A stretch of DNA of 42,822 nucleotides from a virus: positions 1-42,822 of IMG/VR virus record IMGVR_UViG_3300034072_001154. The stretch is one strand, 5' to 3'. The position numbers were made by a program, and so were the translations under genes. Shown one piece after another: positions 13 through 42,764 of this stretch (position 1 is its first letter; every line of letters starts with the position of its first letter). The notes below the pieces were generated by a model, which saw only the letters and a program-made list of their open reading frames with translations, ran no database searches and was not told the DNA's origin.

Positions 13-1170
13 ATGATTCAGAACCTCGACTTCTTCCAGCCGGCCCGGTCGCGCTTTGACATTTCAATTGATGACCGCATCGCTACCGCCATCGATGGGG
101 GCGCGGATGTTGAGTTTAACCTTTCTGGAGGAAAAGATAGCGGGGCAGCTGCGCACGCTGTTTCACTCTGGCTAGACAGTATTGGCCATAGCCGCGACTG
201 CCGTCGGGCGATTCATGCGGATCTGGGTAGAACTGAATGGCGTTCAACGCCCGCGCAGGTGCAGCGGACTGCCGATTTTCTCGGCGTCGAACTCACCGTG
301 GTTCGCCGAGGCGCTGGTGACCTGCTGGCTCGATGGCAGCAACGCTTCAACAACGCCAAGCTGCGATACGCAGATATGCGGCTTTACCACATGCTCGGGC
401 CGTGGTCCTCGCCCTCACTAAAGTTCTGTCAGTCCGAGATGAAGGCTCAACAGATGGGGCCTGTTGTGGCGCGCGCACATAGAGGGCGCACCGTAATCCA
501 GGTTGTCGGCATCCGAAGAGATGAGAGCAACAATCGTAAGAACGCGCCGATCAGCGAAGAGGATACGCGCTATGCGAAAGCGGGCAATCGCCATGGCACG
601 CGCGTCATTCTTTGGAATCCTATTTGTGATTGGTCTGCCGAAGAGGTGTTCGCCTTCCATGAGGCGGAAGGTATTCCACTCAGCGAGGTCTACACGCTTT
701 GGCAGCTATCCAGGCACTCGTGCGCCTTTTGCATAATGCAGAACTGGAGTGATCAAGAGAAAGCGGCACGGGCGCCCGACAATCACCCGCTGCTGCTCGC
801 GCAGGTCGGCATGGAGGCCGAGAGCGCTTATTCATTTCAGGCCGGCAAATGGCTGGCTGACGTGGCACCGGACCTCCTTACCGACGAGCTGCGCAGCGGC
901 GTTGACCTTGCCAAAGAATGGGCGGCCGAACGAAAACTGATTGAGGGCAGGATGCCCGCTCGTCATCGATATGTTGATGGCTGGCCGCTACACCAACCTG
1001 ACGCCGCTGAAGCTCGCGATATTGCGGTAGCTCGATGCCGCATATTGGACTGGTATGGGATCGATAGCCCCTATCGAGACGGACCAAGTATCGAGGCGCG
1101 CTTTGCAGAATTGCTGATCGAGGCGGCCTCGCGGAAGGCAGCTAAGGAAATGAGGGGGCGGGCAGCATGA
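13..1170 (+). CDS. PAPS reductase-like PP-loop ATP pyrophosphatase
   Basis: A 385-residue protein of the phosphoadenosine-phosphosulfate reductase / N-type ATP pyrophosphatase superfamily. The PP-loop SGGKDSG is at residues 38-44. Cys139 (in KFCQSEMK) and the pair Cys237/Cys240 (in SCAFC) could hold an iron-sulfur cluster or carry sulfur, as in DndC-like and tRNA-thiolation relatives. Such proteins activate a substrate by adenylation, often before sulfur transfer; many phages carry one of unknown role. It begins 12 bases into the window and its TGA overlaps the next ATG, so it heads a coupled cassette with DUF1643, nuclease and helicase genes. True sulfate assimilation is less likely because no other sulfur gene is nearby. 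The family call is firm; the substrate is unknown. Confidence 0.85.
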   Translation: MIQNLDFFQPARSRFDISIDDRIATAIDGGADVEFNLSGGKDSGAAAHAVSLWLDSIGHSRDCRRAIHADLGRTEWRSTPAQVQRTADFLGVELTVVRRGAGDLLARWQQRFNNAKLRYADMRLYHMLGPWSSPSLKFCQSEMKAQQMGPVVARAHRGRTVIQVVGIRRDESNNRKNAPISEEDTRYAKAGNRHGTRVILWNPICDWSAEEVFAFHEAEGIPLSEVYTLWQLSRHSCAFCIMQNWSDQEKAARAPDNHPLLLAQVGMEAESAYSFQAGKWLADVAPDLLTDELRSGVDLAKEWAAERKLIEGRMPARHRYVDGWPLHQPDAAEARDIAVARCRILDWYGIDSPYRDGPSIEARFAELLIEAASRKAAKEMRGRAA

Positions 1171-29689: not shown

Positions 29690-29925
29690 CAATCGAGATC
29701 CGCTCGATCGACGGGCGGGAACGCCTTGGTTGCAGCGTGCGCTAGGGCGGCCTGCATGGCCACCTTCTTCACATGTCGGCGCGCATCTTCCTTGTCGTTG
29801 AAGGTCGCAACCCGTCCGCAAGAGCGCAGAGCATGGTGATTATTCCATGCAAACTCGACCAGCTTCCATTCGCCGATCTCTCGGTCGTGAACATATACGA
29901 CCGTCTCCATGTCTTCCTCTGTCAT
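29689..29925 (-). CDS. hypothetical protein, 78 aa
   Basis: Starts MTEEDMETVVYVHDREIGEWKL, then a basic helix EDARRHVKKVAMQAALAHAATKA. The ATG at 29925 overlaps the terminase stop as TGATG; a TTG one codon earlier is in frame but needless. A small alpha/beta protein in the packaging operon; function unknown. Confidence 0.65.
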   Translation of the reverse strand: MTEEDMETVVYVHDREIGEWKLVEFAWNNHHALRSCGRVATFNDKEDARRHVKKVAMQAALAHAATKAFPPVDRADLD

Positions 29926-31421
29926 CAATCCAACTCCGCATAGCGATCGCCCCCGCGCGACCGGCCGTAATTTTCGGGGTTCATGTACCCAGGCACCGAG
30001 CGCGGCGCGACCGGCTCAGCGAACGTCGTCGCCAGCGCGTCACCATCGTCAGGCGAGGGCAGGCCGCGCGCCTTCATGTGCTTCTTCTTCTCCAGCGCCA
30101 GCCGCTGCTCCTCATCATAGCCATATTCCGGCCCGGTGAGATCGTCAGACAGGCCCTGATCGTCGGGGATCGCGCCATGCTCCAGCCATGACCGCATGGA
30201 CGTCCAGATCTCGGTGCGCTTGTTCGCCGTCTTCACGCGAACGCCATTGGCCCAGACGGCATCGCGCCCCTTGCCGCCGAAGTTGACCTCGATGATCAGC
30301 ATGTCGGGCAGCAGCTGGCGGAGGCGATCGACCACGCCGGCGCCCATGTTGCCGACGTCGACGAAGATCGCGTCGGGATGCTCGCGCATCGCCTCTGTAG
30401 CGATGTCGCCGGCGACCTTCATCGTGTCGGCGCCATACCAACGCAGCCAGGGGCGGGACCGGGCATCGCGCCCACACCGCTTGGCGAGCGTGCTGTGATC
30501 GTCACCGAATCGCGCGCAGTCCACACCATAGATTAGCGGGTCGGATCGCAGGGCTTCCACCTCACGCTTCTGCGCCTGCTCGACCAGGTCCATGCCGATG
30601 AACTGCATCGACGAGGCCGACGGGAACATGCCGCGCACGCGAACCTTCACGATATCGCTGTCCGCGCCATAGGTGGTGACCAGCTCGTCGAGATATTTCT
30701 TGTTGGTGCCCTCGACATTGCGGCTATCGATCTGCCGGGTCTTCCACATGTTCCGGCTCTTGCCATAGCAGTCGCGAAATGAGCCGGTGTTGAGCGTCGG
30801 GTTGCCGAAGGCAAGCCACAGGATCTCGGTGTCCTCGTCGGTGAGCGCGCCGAGCGCGACCTCCCACACCTTGTTGATGATGCCCGACGCCTCGTCGAAG
30901 ATCAGCACGATGCGCTTGCCCTGATTGTGCAGGCCGGCGAACGCCTCGGTGTTGTTCGCCGACCAGGTGACAAGGTCGGTGCGCCAGGACTTCGACCGGT
31001 CGCCCATGGTCGACACGATGCTCGTGGCGTTGACCTTGAACCAGTCGCCGGTGACCGCGAGCTGCGCCCACTTCGCCAGCTCCGGCCCCGTCTTGGTGAG
31101 GAGCTGGCCCTCGGTGTTGGCGGTGATGACGATGCGGGTGTCAACGCAGGTGTCGAGCGCCCACTTGTTGATCATGGAGATCCCGGCCGACTTGCCGATA
31201 CCGTGGCCGGACGCCACGGCGATCCGGCAGGGCGCGTGTCGCGTCTCCGGGTTGGCGAGATGTTCCTCGATCTGCTGGAACACTTCAGCCTGCCAGGTGC
31301 GCGGGCCGGAGGCGGGCATTGCCTCCGTCTCCCAGGGATAGGCGAAGCGGGCATGATCGAGGGGAGAATAGCGAAACTCGCCGATGCGCTCGGCCAGCGC
31401 GATCCGGTCACTCAGCGCCAC
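29925..31421 (-). CDS. terL: terminase large subunit
   Basis: 498 residues. ATPase domain: Walker A SGHGIGKS at 71-78, Walker B VLIFDEAS at 172-179, with a coupling motif around 203-208. Nuclease domain: Asp301 in GVDCARFGDD, Asp355 in FVDVGNMGAG, and a C-terminal DDGDAL, i.e. the RNase H-like acidic cluster. It powers DNA packaging and cuts the concatemer. GTG start at 31421, overlapping the TerS gene end by 14 bases. Confidence 0.93.
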   Translation of the reverse strand: MALSDRIALAERIGEFRYSPLDHARFAYPWETEAMPASGPRTWQAEVFQQIEEHLANPETRHAPCRIAVASGHGIGKSAGISMINKWALDTCVDTRIVITANTEGQLLTKTGPELAKWAQLAVTGDWFKVNATSIVSTMGDRSKSWRTDLVTWSANNTEAFAGLHNQGKRIVLIFDEASGIINKVWEVALGALTDEDTEILWLAFGNPTLNTGSFRDCYGKSRNMWKTRQIDSRNVEGTNKKYLDELVTTYGADSDIVKVRVRGMFPSASSMQFIGMDLVEQAQKREVEALRSDPLIYGVDCARFGDDHSTLAKRCGRDARSRPWLRWYGADTMKVAGDIATEAMREHPDAIFVDVGNMGAGVVDRLRQLLPDMLIIEVNFGGKGRDAVWANGVRVKTANKRTEIWTSMRSWLEHGAIPDDQGLSDDLTGPEYGYDEEQRLALEKKKHMKARGLPSPDDGDALATTFAEPVAPRSVPGYMNPENYGRSRGGDRYAELD

Positions 31422-32554: not shown

Positions 32555-32724
32555 ATTCCCCCCATCTGCTTCAGCTTCCGATTGGTTGCGCGCTCGCGGG
32601 CGCGCAGCTCTGCCAGCGTCACCCGCTTCACCGGCGCGCCGAACGGCCAGAGCTTGCGGTTGATCCGGTGGGCAACGGACAGCTCCAACTGGTCATTCCT
32701 CATTCCATCCCCCGTCCTGTTCAT
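32551..32724 (-). CDS. small basic protein, 57 aa
   Basis: Starts MNRTGDGMRNDQLELSV at 32724, or at the internal Met eight residues later (32703). Both ends overlap the neighbours as ATGA, so the frame is well supported even though it is short. Arg/Lys-rich helix (LAELRARERATNRKLKQM) toward the end suggests nucleic acid binding. Function unknown. Confidence 0.65.
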   Translation of the reverse strand: MNRTGDGMRNDQLELSVAHRINRKLWPFGAPVKRVTLAELRARERATNRKLKQMGGI

Positions 32725-33779
32725 GCTGGCGGCTGTTCATTGGCGAAGCGCAGTTCGGCGTCGGGGCCGAGCACCGCGTGCATCGCCTGCGCCAGGTCGT
32801 TGGCGAAATTGTCGCGCAGATAGTTGCTGGCGAAGCTGCTGACCGCCACGGCCGTCATCGTGCCGGCATCGATGTCGAGGCGGGACGGCGCGACCCAGCG
32901 GTCATATTGCTGATCGCCGAGCTTGGCCTTGACCAGCGTGCGGATCTTCGCCGCCGCGCCGTTCTCGCGGCTGGTGTCGTGGGCCTTGGCCGGCTGGGCA
33001 GGGCGGGGCGTGGACGGCGGCGCGCTGTGCTGGACGCCGGAGCGAGCATCGCGCAGGATTTGCCCCGTCGATCGATTGATCCACGTGCACCAGGCCTTGT
33101 CCCAGTCGAGCTTGCAGGCGCGGCCGCTCGCCTCGGCCAGCCAGAAGTTCAGAAACGCTTCCGCCTCGGCCTCGTAGGCGCCGGCAGGCCATTGGCGAGC
33201 CTTCGCCTTGGCAGCAGGCGGGAGGTCGGTGAGCGCTGGCGGTTTCCAGTCCGCCGGAATCCGACTTCCCCGATTTCGCTTCTCGGCAGGGTCTTTTGCC
33301 CCCTGGGGGGCTATAGGGGGTTTATTATTATCCTTATCAGATCCTTCCCCTGACACAGCTGTGTCACCCTCCCCATGACAATCTGTCGTGGGGGAGGGCG
33401 TCAATCTGTCATGGGGGGGTGTCAATTTGTCACCCTCCCCCCCTGTCAAATTGTCATGGGGGGTATCGACCTTTGCAGGCGGTTCTACATGGCTGACGCG
33501 GGGCGGCTTATAGCCAGGAAACCTGAAGCTGTTCCAGCCCTGTCCACCATCGCTGCGCACCGCGTCGGACTTCACGATGAAGCCCAGTTCTGCGAGCCGC
33601 TGGACATGGCGCTGCGCCGTGCGGACCGAGATTTCGACCTCATCCGCCAGCCGGCGCATCGACACCTGGCACTCGTCGCCCTTGGGGTTCATCCAGTTGG
33701 CGATGCCGACCAGCACCGCCTTGGTGACGGGATCGCCGGTGCGCTGCTGGCGCGCCCAGTTTTCAGCCTCCCAGCTCAT
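32721..33779 (-). CDS. replication initiator with winged-helix and DnaA-N-like domains
   Basis: 352 residues. Residues 1-75 are a winged helix (MSWEAENWARQQRTGDPVTK, then DEVEISVRTAQRHVQRLAELGFIV as recognition helix region, in outline). Residues 90-175 are a polar linker coded by repeated DNA (33351-33463). Residues about 274-345, including YDRWVAPSRLDIDAG and NYLRDNFANDLAQAMHAVLG, resemble the DnaA N-terminal domain, which recruits the replicative helicase. This is the layout of phage initiators that bind an origin in their own gene, as lambda O does. Couples to the nuclease gene by ATGA. Confidence 0.78.
   Translation of the reverse strand: MSWEAENWARQQRTGDPVTKAVLVGIANWMNPKGDECQVSMRRLADEVEISVRTAQRHVQRLAELGFIVKSDAVRSDGGQGWNSFRFPGYKPPRVSHVEPPAKVDTPHDNLTGGEGDKLTPPHDRLTPSPTTDCHGEGDTAVSGEGSDKDNNKPPIAPQGAKDPAEKRNRGSRIPADWKPPALTDLPPAAKAKARQWPAGAYEAEAEAFLNFWLAEASGRACKLDWDKAWCTWINRSTGQILRDARSGVQHSAPPSTPRPAQPAKAHDTSRENGAAAKIRTLVKAKLGDQQYDRWVAPSRLDIDAGTMTAVAVSSFASNYLRDNFANDLAQAMHAVLGPDAELRFANEQPPA
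33319..33463. other. likely replication origin: iterons plus AT-rich block
   Basis: Within the initiator gene. A perfect 16-bp palindrome TGACACAGCTGTGTCA (33351-33366) is followed by four related sites: GACAATCTGTC (33377-33387), GTCAATCTGTCATGGGGGGG (33400-33419), TGTCAATTTGTCA (33420-33432) and TGTCAAATTGTCATGGGGGG (33444-33463). Their shared core is GTCAANTTGTCA-like. CCCTCCCC and GGGGAGGG flank the first pair. On one side lies an AT-rich run (33320-33337, TTTATTATTATCCTTATC), the expected unwinding site. Confidence 0.7.
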
Positions 33780-34314: not shown

Positions 34315-34605
34315 TCAGACCAGGCCGTGCTGCCGCTCCACCTGCGCATTCACGCGGTCGAGCGCGAAATTCAGGTCCGAGAGCAGAAGCATCGCATTTT
34401 GCACGGCGCCGGCCGGTGTCGGGATCGGCTCCGGGTCGCGCGCCAGCGAGGGATTTGTTCCGAACAGGCGATCGTTGCGAGCATCAAGCCGATCGGCGAT
34501 CTCGTTTGCGCGAGCGATCACATTGCTCAGTTCGCCTGCAATCGCCTCGAACGACGACAGCGATCGATCCGTGATCTCACCGCGGGCAAAGGAATCTGTC
34601 TTCAT
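34315..34605 (-). CDS. hypothetical helical protein, 96 aa
   Basis: Starts MKTDSFARGEITDRSLSSFEAI and continues as a nearly continuous helix: ELSNVIARANEIADRLDAR, then a Pro-rich turn, then AMLLLSDLNFALDRVNAQVE. This is a helical-hairpin or coiled-coil protein. The longer frame to 34866 is a shadow. It lies just after the Acb2-like gene in the operon. Function unknown. Confidence 0.65.
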   Translation of the reverse strand: MKTDSFARGEITDRSLSSFEAIAGELSNVIARANEIADRLDARNDRLFGTNPSLARDPEPIPTPAGAVQNAMLLLSDLNFALDRVNAQVERQHGLV

Positions 34606-34615
34606 GATAGGCACC

Positions 34616-34852
34616 TCAATTGACGTTGGCGCGGACAGCCGCGTCCTTGGCTTCCAGCAGCTTGCGCAGCGCGACGGTGCGCTCGGGATTGCGCGGCAGC
34701 GTCTCAACGATGTGGCGCGCAAGGTCGCAGAACGGCCGCGACGCGCCCTGCAGGACGGGCGGCAGGTGCGAATAATGGAAGTAGCGCAGGATCGGATCGG
34801 CGCCGATCTGCTCGGGCGAGAACTCGGCCGGCGCCGGGTGAATCTCAGACAT
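34616..34852 (-). CDS. Acb2/Tad1-like hairpin protein (anti-CBASS/Thoeris candidate)
   Basis: 78 residues. YFHYSHLPPVLQGASRPF at 24-41 is followed by DLARHIVETLP and NPERTVALRKLLEAKD (55-70), then AAVRA. I recognise this as the Acb2/Tad1 hairpin domain found in many phages. Members form oligomers that trap cyclic nucleotide or ADP-ribose signals made by CBASS or Thoeris. The ribosome site GAGGAG sits six bases before the ATG. It lies in the early operon beside a methyltransferase, where counter-defence genes are common. Which signal it binds cannot be read from the sequence. Confidence 0.7.
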   Translation of the reverse strand: MSEIHPAPAEFSPEQIGADPILRYFHYSHLPPVLQGASRPFCDLARHIVETLPRNPERTVALRKLLEAKDAAVRANVN

Positions 34853-35018
34853 AATGATCTCCTCAAAAATGTGCGTCGGTGACCACGATTTACGGCATGT
34901 ACCTTCTCCCCCCGACCAACCGGCCGAGCGTGCGAACCAGCCGGCGGGACATCGTGATCTTGTTCTCACCCGGGCCGACGCGGCGTCCGGGCTGCAAGTC
35001 GAAAGGGGGTAACTGGGA

Positions 35019-35723
35019 TCAGGGCGGCGCGTGGACGCGCTGCTCATGGGCCAGCCGCAGCCGTTCGACGGCGGTGGCGAAATGCTTGGGGTTGTGCTCG
35101 ATCCCGATGAACGTCCGGCCAGCCTTTACCGCGGCGACGCCGGTCGAGCCGGTGCCCATGAACGGGTCGCAGATGATGCCCTCGCCCATATTGGCGATGA
35201 TCTTGTCCATCACGGCGTCCGGCTTCACCGTCGGGTGGCCGTAGACCTTGCTCGGCTGGCTGGGCGCGGTGACATGGCGATGCATGTCGTGGTGCGCGCC
35301 GACCGGGTGGTGGCCTTCCTGCCAGGCGTGGATGAAGAACTCGGTGTCCGCCAGATAATGCTTGTTCCGGTGCGGCGAGGGGTTCGGCTTGATCCACACC
35401 TGCACGCACACACGGCGGTAATTGCCGGTGAGATAGGTGAGCAGCTCGGGCAGCTGGTCATTGTGGCAGAACACGACGACGCTCGGATGCAGCAGCGGAT
35501 TGATGATGCTGTGATCGAAGCCCTCGTCCAGCCGCTCCGCGACGATCTGGTCCGACGCGCCACGCGCAGCGCGGAAGGCGCCGCCGCCCGAATTATCGAA
35601 CAGATAGGGCGGATCGGCGACCAGCAGCACGCGGCCCAGTCGGTGCAGCAGCTCGTTGGCGTCGGTGAGATAGAGCGTGGCATGCTCCATCGTCACGACC
35701 GTGGGGGTGGTGACGTCGAGCAT
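35019..35723 (-). CDS. DNA methyltransferase, DPPY type
   Basis: 234 residues. Catalytic motif IV DPPY is at 37-40, and the S-adenosylmethionine motif DPFMGTGSTG at 186-195, with HPTVKP at 163-168: motif IV before motif I, the beta class. The target base is adenine N6 or cytosine N4. No restriction partner is nearby, so it is a solitary methylase that may shield phage DNA or act in regulation. ATG overlaps the upstream stop. After its stop the same frame stays open for about 40 codons (to roughly 34898), without a clear start. Confidence 0.88.
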   Translation of the reverse strand: MLDVTTPTVVTMEHATLYLTDANELLHRLGRVLLVADPPYLFDNSGGGAFRAARGASDQIVAERLDEGFDHSIINPLLHPSVVVFCHNDQLPELLTYLTGNYRRVCVQVWIKPNPSPHRNKHYLADTEFFIHAWQEGHHPVGAHHDMHRHVTAPSQPSKVYGHPTVKPDAVMDKIIANMGEGIICDPFMGTGSTGVAAVKAGRTFIGIEHNPKHFATAVERLRLAHEQRVHAPP

Positions 35724-36286
35724 CAGCCAGCCGCCTCGTGCATCGCCTGCAATGCCGGATGCGCCTGCCCACCGGCCGCGATCAGCACGTCGCGCTTGCC
35801 GATATGGTTGGGCGGGCCCACCACGCCCTTACGCTCCAGCTCCTCGATCAACCGCTGCGCGCTGTTATAGCCGATGCGCATCTGGCGCTGGAGCCAAGAC
35901 GTGGACGCGTTCTGATGATCCACGACCAGGCTCAGCGCGGCGGTGAAGCGCTCCGCGTCATCTGCCGTCGGGGCAGGGGCGGGCCTGCTCGGTTCCGGCC
36001 GGCCGTCATGGCCTTCATACATGTCCGGTTGGCGGCCGGGGCCGTCTTCCATGCCGAGCGCGGACAGATAGGTTTCCAGCACCGCCTGCATTTCCTGACG
36101 GTCGTGCGGCTGCATTTTGCGCAGGCGGATGATCTGGCGCATGATCTTGGGGTCGTAGCCGGTCGCCTTGGCTTCCAGATAGACGTCCTTGATGTCGTCG
36201 CTGATCCCCTTCTTCTCTTCCTCCAGCCGCTCGATGCGCTCGATCAGAAGACGAAGCTGGTCCGCTGCGATGCTGCCCTCAGACAT
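35723..36286 (-). CDS. GapR (DUF2312) - FtsK-gamma fusion protein
   Basis: 187 residues from the ATG at 36286 (a TTG at 36304 is in frame but not needed). Residues 1-80 match GapR/DUF2312: [19 protein letters not shown], then [19 protein letters not shown], and QIIRLRK. GapR of Caulobacter clamps overtwisted DNA. A Pro-rich linker (about 81-111) leads to residues 112-170: [20 protein letters not shown] and [13 protein letters not shown], the FtsK gamma winged helix that reads KOPS sites. I do not recall this pairing as described. First substantial gene of the leftward early operon after the Cro-like regulator. Confidence 0.8.
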
Positions 36287-36333
36287 GTGGTCCCCGCTGT
36301 ACAAAAATGGAACGATAGGTGAACAAAAGATGA

Positions 36334-36629: not shown

Positions 36630-37385
36630 ATGCTCGAAACAAGCCCGCATTTGTGGGAAAAATCCAACATGACGAACAGCGACTTCCCGCGGGGCAGAGA
36701 GCTCTATGACGTGCTAATGGCGCTCAAGCCGGTGGGCCTCCCGGAAACGCGATGGGCGGTTGAGGCTGGGCTGAACAAGGCCTTCTTCACCAACATGAAG
36801 GCCGGCATTGGAAGCATCCGAAGCGACAATCTCGAAAAGTTGCTGAACCGCATCGGCAAGTCCGTTGGCGACCTGGCTGGTTCGCCTGATCGACCGCCAG
36901 CCAATGCAGAGCCTGTAGCGTTTGAGGGACGATCGGCAGAGCGAGTGCGCGGAGACTGTCCGGTTTATGGCACTGCCTTGGGGGCAGAGCGAGTGATTGA
37001 CGGGGAGGCAATCGAGCAAACGATGCTGAATTCGGGGGATGTAATTGAATATCGTAAGCGTCCTGCGATCACGAACGGTGTTGAGCGCGTATACGGTCTC
37101 TATGTGCAGGGCTCTTCAATGTACCCAGCCCACCGGGACGGCGCCTTTCTATTCGCGCAGCACGATGTTCCGCTCCGCGTCGGCGATGATGTGGTGGTCT
37201 ACCTCCGGCCGTTGGACGATTCAGACGATGGCAGCACAGCGCGTTGCGTGCTGGTTAAGCGGCTGGTTAAGCGGAACGCGCAGTATGTTGAGTTGGAGCA
37301 GTATACGCCCGCCAAAGTGTTCCGTATCCCGATGGCAGACGTGCTGCGGATCGATAGGGTTCTGACGGCCGACGATTACGCGTAG
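36630..37385 (+). CDS. CI-like repressor, S24 peptidase type
   Basis: 251 residues from the ATG at 36630 (GGAA five bases upstream); an ATG at 36669 would give 238. The N-terminal HTH covers about 22-82 (LPETRWAVEAGLNKAFFTNM, SDNLEKLLNRIG). The C-terminal S24 domain has Ser163 in VQGSSMYP and Lys210 in VLVKRLV, the catalytic pair of LexA-like self-cleavage. It should hold the prophage silent by binding the flanking operators and be inactivated on RecA activation. The exact cleavage bond is not obvious. Confidence 0.9.
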   Translation: MLETSPHLWEKSNMTNSDFPRGRELYDVLMALKPVGLPETRWAVEAGLNKAFFTNMKAGIGSIRSDNLEKLLNRIGKSVGDLAGSPDRPPANAEPVAFEGRSAERVRGDCPVYGTALGAERVIDGEAIEQTMLNSGDVIEYRKRPAITNGVERVYGLYVQGSSMYPAHRDGAFLFAQHDVPLRVGDDVVVYLRPLDDSDDGSTARCVLVKRLVKRNAQYVELEQYTPAKVFRIPMADVLRIDRVLTADDYA

Positions 37386-41302: not shown

Positions 41303-41676
41303 GCGCCGCCCTCCCGGAGATCGCCGAGCGCATGCAGCGCGCAATCCTCAACGGACGGGGCATCCGCCTCGAAGCGAACGACCTCGATCTGCTTGTCGCG
41401 ATCGGCGTCAACGACCTCGTCCAGACCGAAAACGCCAAATTGCTGAGAGAACAATGCCTGACCCGCACCATGAAGAGCCGCTCTATACCAGGGGGACAAC
41501 CAGCCTCGGGCGACCAAAATACTGGCTCGGATGGGACCGCCGGTCGGACGGCTCGCTCCGCTCCCCCCATCTCTACATCTTCTGGTACGACGTCGAGCGC
41601 CGACGCGTCCGGTCGCGATCGACGGGCACATCGGATGTCGGGCAGGCTGAGGAAAAGCTCGACGCCCTCTACGTAG
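41299..41676 (+). CDS. hypothetical protein overlapping the integrase
   Basis: 125 residues. The first 55 look folded (LPEIAERMQRAILNGRGIRL, ANDLDLLVAIGVNDL). The rest is low-complexity Ser/Thr/Gly and arises from the integrase DNA in another frame: the two genes share 223 bases. A short real protein with an accidental tail, or a genuine overlap, are both possible. Confidence 0.55.
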   Translation: MSAALPEIAERMQRAILNGRGIRLEANDLDLLVAIGVNDLVQTENAKLLREQCLTRTMKSRSIPGGQPASGDQNTGSDGTAGRTARSAPPISTSSGTTSSADASGRDRRAHRMSGRLRKSSTPST

Positions 41677-42764
41677 AACGCGAGCGCGGGCAGCTGATCT
41701 GCGCGGCGTGCGGCCAGCTCGTCGTCGGCGCGCCGCCACATCCGCTGGTTGACGCCATGTCGAACTATCTGATCTCGGTGCGCAAGAAGCCCTCGCTCAC
41801 CTCAATCAAGGCGCGGCTGGCCCATGTGTCGAACTATCTGATCGAGACCGAGCGCCTCGATACGACCTGCGACCAGGTCAACGAGGAGTGGATCGACGAT
41901 TTCCGCGACTGGGCTTTCGAGGTGCCGGTCGTGTCTACGGCGGGCAAGGTGCTTGGCGATCGCAGCGCCGGCACGGTGGAAGGGTCGGTCCGCGCATTGA
42001 GCGCCGCGATCAACCACGCAAACGGCCGGGGCGACACGCCCTATGCCGCCGCGTTCCAGGCGAAGAAGCCCGACGAGGTGAGCGAGACGCCGGCATATCG
42101 CGCCGACATCGCCAAGCTGGCCGAGATGTTCAACTATTGCCTCCGGCCGCCGCGCGCCGCCGGCATGAGCGACAAGGCCTATGATCGCCAGCTTGCCTAT
42201 CGCGAGGCGCTGCTGCGCTTCCTGCGCGTGAGCGTCGCAACCTGGTGCCGGCCGGATGCCGCCTATGATGTGTCGACCGATCCCGAGCGCCGGCAATGGT
42301 ATCCGGATATCCGCGCCCTCGCGCTCAACCCCCGGGGCAGGCCGCAGACGAAGAAGTACCGTCCGGTCGTGCCCGTCGCTCACCAGCTGGTCGAGCACCT
42401 GAAGGCGGCGCCCGTCGGTTTCTATGTCGGGCCGCTATCGATTCGCACGGCGTTCGAGGGGATGCAGGATGAACTGCGCCTGCCGCGCGATGGCGAGACC
42501 GGGCAGAAGTTGATCCGCCGGTCGATCGCGAAGCTCGCGCGCAGCCGTCTGGGCGAGGCGCTTTGGGTGGAAGGGCAGATGATGCTGGGCCACCGGGTCC
42601 ACTCGAAAACGTCCGACATCTATGCGGCGTTCGAGGCGGGTTACCTGACCAATGCCCTGGCCGTGACAGAGCAGATTATCGACGAGATTGAGGTGAAGGC
42701 TCCCGGCGCCTTTCGCCGGAGCATCACCGGACTTAAAATCATCCATGGAGGACGAAATGCTTAA
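41454..42764 (+). CDS. int: tyrosine integrase
   Basis: 436 residues. N-terminal arm-binding part to about 85, with a Cys pair (CAAC, 83-86). A core-binding domain spans about 95-195, and the catalytic domain about 215-410: Arg266 (CRPDA), Lys300/301 (TKKYR), Arg355/356 (LIRRS, where HxxR is usual), His380 (LGHR) and the nucleophile Tyr390 (DIYAAF). It recombines attP with a host site, here the tRNA 3' end that begins seven bases after its stop. ATG at 41454 is the only sensible start. Confidence 0.9.
   Translation: MPDPHHEEPLYTRGTTSLGRPKYWLGWDRRSDGSLRSPHLYIFWYDVERRRVRSRSTGTSDVGQAEEKLDALYVERERGQLICAACGQLVVGAPPHPLVDAMSNYLISVRKKPSLTSIKARLAHVSNYLIETERLDTTCDQVNEEWIDDFRDWAFEVPVVSTAGKVLGDRSAGTVEGSVRALSAAINHANGRGDTPYAAAFQAKKPDEVSETPAYRADIAKLAEMFNYCLRPPRAAGMSDKAYDRQLAYREALLRFLRVSVATWCRPDAAYDVSTDPERRQWYPDIRALALNPRGRPQTKKYRPVVPVAHQLVEHLKAAPVGFYVGPLSIRTAFEGMQDELRLPRDGETGQKLIRRSIAKLARSRLGEALWVEGQMMLGHRVHSKTSDIYAAFEAGYLTNALAVTEQIIDEIEVKAPGAFRRSITGLKIIHGGRNA

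Follow-up and report, generated by a model that had tools for sequence, protein, structure and literature searches.

A large unnamed phage protein family is a predicted sister of the Acb2/Tad1 hairpin family and has a changed putative ligand site

P0002, a 78-residue protein encoded in the early operon of a temperate phage, belongs to a large unnamed family that we describe here as a sister of the Acb2/Tad1 hairpin family (Acb2_Tad1_hairpin, PF24729) with a changed site. Judged by its sequence and its predicted model, P0002 is a stand-alone protein with a two-helix hairpin that has diverged from the members of PF24729. A counter-defence role for P0002 is likely, and our judgment leans, with less assurance, toward the narrower reading that it is a divergent signal sponge.

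The window, that is, the whole stretch of DNA that was analyzed (42,822 bases), is an entire IMG/VR record and represents a temperate tailed phage, the closest relatives of which are Sphingobium prophages. A terminase, a head-tail adaptor, and a major head protein are encoded in the window together with the following features.

34315..34605, minus strand: 96-residue ORF, function unassigned, directly downstream of the 78-residue gene (10-nt gap)
34612..34617, minus strand: GAGGTG, ribosome-binding-site-like by sequence, for the 96-residue ORF; overlaps the stop codon of the 78-residue gene
34616..34852, minus strand: CDS of P0002, 78 residues, predicted divergent relative of the Acb2/Tad1 hairpin; phrog_1761/phrog_5120 family
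34858..34864, minus strand: GAGGAGA, Shine-Dalgarno-like by sequence, 5 nt before the ATG of the 78-residue gene
35019..35723, minus strand: solitary N6/N4 DNA methyltransferase, upstream of the 78-residue gene (PF01555, 1.5e-14; phrog_67, 7.6e-29; PADLOC MTase_II and orphan MTase models)
36630-37385: S24-type (CI/S24) repressor
41454-42764: integrase-like gene

The ORF at 34616-34852 consists of 78 codons and a TGA stop codon, and its product is MSEIHPAPAEFSPEQIGADPILRYFHYSHLPPVLQGASRPFCDLARHIVETLPRNPERTVALRKLLEAKDAAVRANVN. Its pN/pS ratio against seven relatives was 0.06-0.26, which together with the GAGGAGA before the ATG indicates that the ORF is a genuine gene and that purifying selection acts on it. 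The leftward early operon to which it belongs opens at the repressor divide (36630), passes rep (32721-33779), and reaches the terminase (29925-31421). The genes follow in the order of a short unnamed protein, a GapR-FtsK-gamma protein, the methyltransferase, the 78-residue gene, the 96-residue ORF, and a resolvase-like gene, after which come the replication initiator and then the packaging genes. A preliminary description of this DNA had placed a 78-residue ORF at exactly these coordinates without naming a strand, which is the minus strand, and had assigned it to an early operon next to a solitary methyltransferase and an unknown helical protein; the position between the repressor divide and rep/terminase agrees with this assignment, and both neighbors are present. 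The protein encoded at 35723-36304 (minus strand) is a fusion of a GapR-like DNA-binding domain (PF10073, 4e-35) with an FtsK gamma domain (PF09397, 2e-23); the first is a nucleoid-protein fold, and the second recognizes sequences that orient the chromosome. A phosphoadenosine phosphosulfate reductase-like gene (13-1170, plus strand; phrog_424, 8.5e-22) adjoins a phrog_3230 protein and a helicase at the opposite end of the phage.

P0002 matches phrog_1761 (2.5e-28) and phrog_5120 (5.5e-17), neither of which has an assigned function, and no match to P0002 was found in NCBIfam or PADLOC. Homologues were detected in 327 of 50,697 phage records (E ≤ 1) and in at least 576 viral stretches, and host genomes carrying them include those of Alpha- and Gammaproteobacteria, Actinobacteria, Bacteroidota, Planctomycetes, Chloroflexota, Cyanobacteria, Verrucomicrobia, Acidobacteria, and others. 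The family is not frequent in any single host; it is present in one of 200 evenly drawn Proteobacteria genomes (the centre itself), compared with six of 200 for PF24729. Because the genome scan used RKLLEAKD and PRN[PA]ERTVA as seeds, conservation in that set is inflated; RKLLE[AS]KD is kept by 10 of the 11 members found by unseeded BLAST. Direct phmmer or profile searches of solved structures with P0002 returned nothing relevant, and literature searches on other sponge families turned up nothing on the phrog_1761/phrog_5120 family. Some members carry additional sequence. In Erwinia giant phage Y3 (L276:2764-3186), the hairpin domain is C-terminal to a stretch with a P-loop-like GPVGCGKS motif, and in Ochrobactrum phage OH (L082:765-1133, annotated as 'anti-TRAP domain-containing protein'), an N-terminal zinc-ribbon-like stretch with CxxC repeats is fused to the hairpin. 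The homologues in L019, L033, and L075 have in common a C-terminal extension of approximately 100 residues with no assigned function.

The preliminary description had read the pattern of the Acb2/Tad1 hairpin domain in P0002 and had proposed a profile search against that domain as a check. This search gave no match: P0002 did not hit PF24729 at E ≤ 1, nor did any part of the window at E ≤ 10, whereas the positive control, T4 Vs.4 (Acb2), scored 71 bits (7e-20) against a curated cut-off of 27 bits. Sub-threshold scores were obtained for 5 of the 107 family members, with a best E-value of 0.0024. P0002 must not be filed as Acb2, Tad1, or a member of PF24729, and what stands of the earlier reading is a sister-family relationship, to which a profile match to one branch of PF24729, the predicted hairpin, and the linkage to Tad2-like genes all point.

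PF24729 itself comprises at least two kinds of proteins, namely, the Acb2 kind (GYRELS...KTxLQxGxMWAxRAVA) and a 'YHPP' kind with the consensus RFxYHPPK...SREKSLAxTKLEEAxMWANAAIAR, examples of which are HEATH_54 of Paenibacillus phage Heath and orf70 of Lactococcus phage 1706. All 13 YHPP proteins first gathered exceed the Pfam cut-off for PF24729. In profile-profile comparisons, the family, represented by 89 diverse members, matched the YHPP kind at 88.8% (90.9% with the roles reversed; E-values of 2.5e-6 and 1.2e-6, respectively) over 54 columns, and at 81.7% when a larger YHPP set was used. The YHPP and Acb2 kinds matched each other at 93.7% with the first YHPP set and at 95.9% with the larger one; direct comparison of the family with the Acb2 branch gave only 0.8%. 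The first comparison, made with a shallow alignment (Neff 1.6), had yielded 0.2%, and the relationship became visible only after diverse relatives were added and PF24729 was divided into branches. The score of the YHPP match was 39.4, whereas none of 120 column-shuffled alignments exceeded 18.5 and the reversed alignment reached 10.0. When the family HMM was searched without filtering against 2,926 ORF segments from loci carrying YHPP and Acb2 genes, the top 40 hits were all of the YHPP type, the best at 2e-6. The profile match, the shuffles, and the HMM ranking place the family beside the YHPP branch of PF24729 as its sister, and homology between the two is, on these comparisons, almost certain. 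P0002 resembles the YHPP proteins in its F-x-Y-(x)-H-x-P start, its P-x-x-x-E-x-x-x-A-L/I-x-K-L-x-E-A core, and its predicted helix-hairpin, but it has Ser38 in place of the helix-1 Arg, Arg63 in place of the helix-2 Thr, and DAAVRA in place of the C-terminal WANAAIAR, and it falls under the Pfam threshold. To our knowledge, the function of the YHPP branch is likewise only presumed. Two genuine PF24729 proteins from Paenibacillus/Brevibacillus phages (L259:589-804 and L260:592-798) bear the label 'putative phosphomannomutase', which is probably a misannotation.

An AlphaFold2 model of P0002 calculated with 107 relatives (pLDDT 93.9) contains helices at residues 13-18, 20-25, 32-51, and 56-74. 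In the predicted arrangement, two long antiparallel helices come after a short one, as in the hairpin superfamily; a genuine PF24729 protein was modeled with helices at residues 3-8, 18-39, and 44-67, and Acb2 is described as having one short helix and an antiparallel pair of long ones (PMC12043709). In a search of predicted viral structures, approximately 10 entries named 'Acb2/Tad1 hairpin domain-containing protein' ranked right behind the family's own entries, the best with a probability of 0.93 and an E-value of 0.7. A Foldseek search of the PDB with re-alignment found neither Acb2 nor Tad1 among the matches listed for the P0002 model; a YHPP control model recovered Tad1, Vs.4, and Acb2 at Z 4-6. 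Two-helix hairpins occur widely and match many unrelated proteins, and the structural evidence, although in agreement, is for this reason weak when taken alone.

In the profile alignments, Tyr27 of P0002 aligns, through the YHPP tyrosine, with Tyr8 of T4 Acb2, and this position is occupied by Y, F, or W in 97% of the 107 members. Replacement of Tyr8 by Ala in T4 Acb2 disrupts the binding of cyclic dinucleotides (PMC12657218). His29 (100%) aligns with the conserved histidine of the YHPP proteins. Ser38 (100%) stands in helix 1 at the position of the YHPP Arg and T4 Lys23, and Arg63 (100%) stands in helix 2 at the position of the YHPP/Acb2 Thr; the helix-1 Lys (Lys23 in T4, Lys26 in PaMx33) is one that we take to be a ligand-contact residue in Acb2. 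Residues R63, K64, L65, L66, E67, K69, D70, and R74 are near-invariant, which is partly an effect of the search seeds. The alignments suggest that the putative site is retained as a site and that its chemistry is altered. With Ser38 and Arg63 replacing Lys/Arg and Thr, any ligand of P0002 probably differs from that of Acb2 in identity or in geometry.

In a rival reading, the hairpin was kept by descent but P0002 now binds a protein, acting as a small inhibitor of a conserved host or defense protein through the invariant charged face of helix 2. The two altered positions among the Acb2/YHPP ligand-site residues fit such a role, as does the mostly charged character of the conserved surface (R63, K64, E67, K69, D70, and R74), and adjacency to Tad2-like genes, described below, suits any counter-defence role. 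However, the characterized proteins of the hairpin fold bind ligands, and the same residues recur in phages of many host phyla; we read this invariance as the mark of a chemically constant ligand rather than of a drifting protein target. We regard protein binding as unlikely and retain the signal sponge as the preferred reading.

Genomic context supplied the strongest independent lead. Across 83 non-redundant loci, the neighbors are mixed and include terminase, portal, RecT, spanin, endolysin, and methyltransferase genes, and the most frequent neighbor family accounts for no more than 3 of 122 genes. Single insertions at unrelated places give the gene the character of a moron. KTSC-domain proteins (PF13619; L035:4151-4384 and L044:4649-4933) stand beside the family in 3 of the 122 neighbor genes. 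Behind a close homologue, L010:1683-2402 resembles the restriction alleviation protein Lar (PF14354, 4e-6, just below the cut-off) and is by this similarity a possible counter-defence neighbor.

Tad2 is an anti-Thoeris sponge that also binds CBASS signals (PMC12043709), and Tad2-like proteins correspond to PF11195. In Sphingobium sp. Leaf26 (L004/L084), which carries a 92% identical homologue, a Tad2-like gene (2.5e-24) lies directly behind the homologue, and direct adjacency was also found in L092, L090 (Novosphingobium), L118 (Rhizobiaceae), and L137 (Yersinia). A search with the Tad2-like HMM covered 50 whole phage records and 49 whole genomes carrying the family; 11 of them contain a Tad2-like gene anywhere, and in 5 of these 11 it shares a strand with the homologue and lies no more than approximately 50 nt away. 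Because L004 and L092 have one prophage lineage, four of the adjacency cases are independent, and by a rough reckoning chance would produce well below one. Two further Tad2-like genes lie within 2.5 kb of a homologue, in L067 and, provided that the contigs are numbered as they seem to be, in L143. In the phage records alone, the Tad2-like gene is adjacent in 1 of 50, and most homologues have no counter-defence neighbor. Records carrying acb2 gave a similar picture, with a Tad2-like gene in 3 of 50, directly behind acb2 in two (L202 and L207); these two Tad2-like proteins are of the same type as that of L004 (54-57% identical). Starting in reverse from 80 Tad2-like loci, we found a hairpin-superfamily gene within 1.5 kb in five; two of these genes, including that of L004, belong to the phrog_1761/phrog_5120 family, and three are of the PF24729 type. 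The window contains no Tad2-like gene (PF11195). In L004:5240-5758, L202:748-1224, and L207:742-1221, the Tad2-like domain is preceded by an N-terminal 'GTK...RGW...SWSPK' domain, which is common to proteins adjoining the family and proteins adjoining acb2. SMODS proteins (CBASS cyclases) occur in 12 of 149 genomes of the Sphingomonadaceae, the host family.

A role as an accessory protein of the virion, of assembly, or of lysis is suggested by the many phages that have the family gene in late modules, at spots that include the gap between the capsid and head-tail adaptor genes and places ahead of the portal, behind the holin, and behind a minor tail protein. The position varies, however, and falls within early or replication regions in the window phage and elsewhere; a structural part would hold its place, and no neighbor family is found in more than 3 of the 122 genes. 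Despite the late-module positions, a structural or lysis role was set aside as very unlikely because the location is inconstant.

Service as an accessory to the neighboring methyltransferase or to replication is still less probable. The methyltransferase, which has DPPY and FMGTGSTG motifs and occurs in a few related phages, adjoins the gene in the window as well as in a few close relatives, and one giant phage likewise has a methyltransferase close by; however, very few of the loci include the methyltransferase, whereas every one contains a family member. Nothing ties the methyltransferase to signal sponging. On the other side of the gene, the 96-residue ORF occupies the slot held by the Tad2-like gene in prophage L004/L084. 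Its relatives among the family loci are confined to L001 and L002 (74% and 70% identity, respectively, compared with 96-97% for the hairpin protein), and searches matched it to one viral contig and to none of the phage records. With a pN/pS of 0.36-0.45, it appears to be a fast-changing accessory gene, for which a counter-defence role is a guess. The preliminary description had suggested a small counter-defence cluster that included both neighbors. Only relatives with a Tad2-like gene in the adjacent slot speak for such a cluster; in the window this slot is filled by an unknown, fast-evolving ORF. Finally, chance likeness between short helical proteins, which the missing Pfam match and the commonness of two-helix hairpins might suggest, is a scarcely credible source of the resemblance to the Acb2/Tad1 hairpin, given a score double the best of the 120 shuffles, an unfiltered search with only YHPP proteins in its top 40, and the common F-x-Y-H-P start and P-x-x-x-E-x-x-x-A-L/I-x-K-L-x-E-A core.

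Set beside the known sponges, P0002 shows both likenesses and differences. Like Acb2 (PaMx33 gp24/p26 and T4 Vs.4), it is small and stand-alone, has one short and two long helices in the prediction and an aromatic residue ahead of helix 1, and belongs to a family that sometimes adjoins the same Tad2-like gene; it differs from this anti-CBASS sponge in giving no direct profile match and in the altered positions of T4 Lys23 and Thr68. The two-helix hairpin is also shared with Tad1, a sponge active against both Thoeris and CBASS, in which it is C-terminal and belongs to the PF24729 family. Tad1 has an N-terminal beta-sheet (PMC12043709), whereas P0002, at 78 residues, lacks such a sheet, and its model shows no strands. 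The Tad2-like proteins (PF11195) have a fold unrelated to that of P0002, and their position next to several relatives suggests that they probably perform the same kind of task. P0002 was not matched to Acb4 (SPO1, PF13876), a cyclic-nucleotide phage sponge with no structural homology to Acb2, Tad1, or Tad2 (PMC11722364).

If P0002 is a signal sponge, as we prefer to read it, a small oligomer of the hairpin protein would be produced early in infection or upon prophage induction and would bind and hold a host nucleotide-derived alarm molecule, which may be the cyclic oligonucleotide of a CBASS system, the ADP-ribose derivative of a Thoeris system, or a related compound. With the alarm molecule held, the immune effector would stay off. 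In this scheme, we infer that the protein oligomerizes, that it binds a nucleotide signal, and that it protects the phage. A bolder proposal, possible but doubtful, is that the family constitutes a new and very widespread class of sponges in which the invariant Ser38/Arg63/Lys64/Lys69/Arg74 would bind an immune nucleotide outside the range of Acb2 and Tad1; if true, the family would mark an immune signal for which no viral sponge is so far known.

The pairing with Tad2-like genes offers a handle for finding more counter-defence genes, including the occupant of the corresponding slot in the window phage. The family extends across phages of many bacterial phyla with near-identical sequence, yet it has had neither a name nor a function. 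If its members are sponges, they would add a large branch to the viral signal sponges, and the altered site would predict a different ligand.
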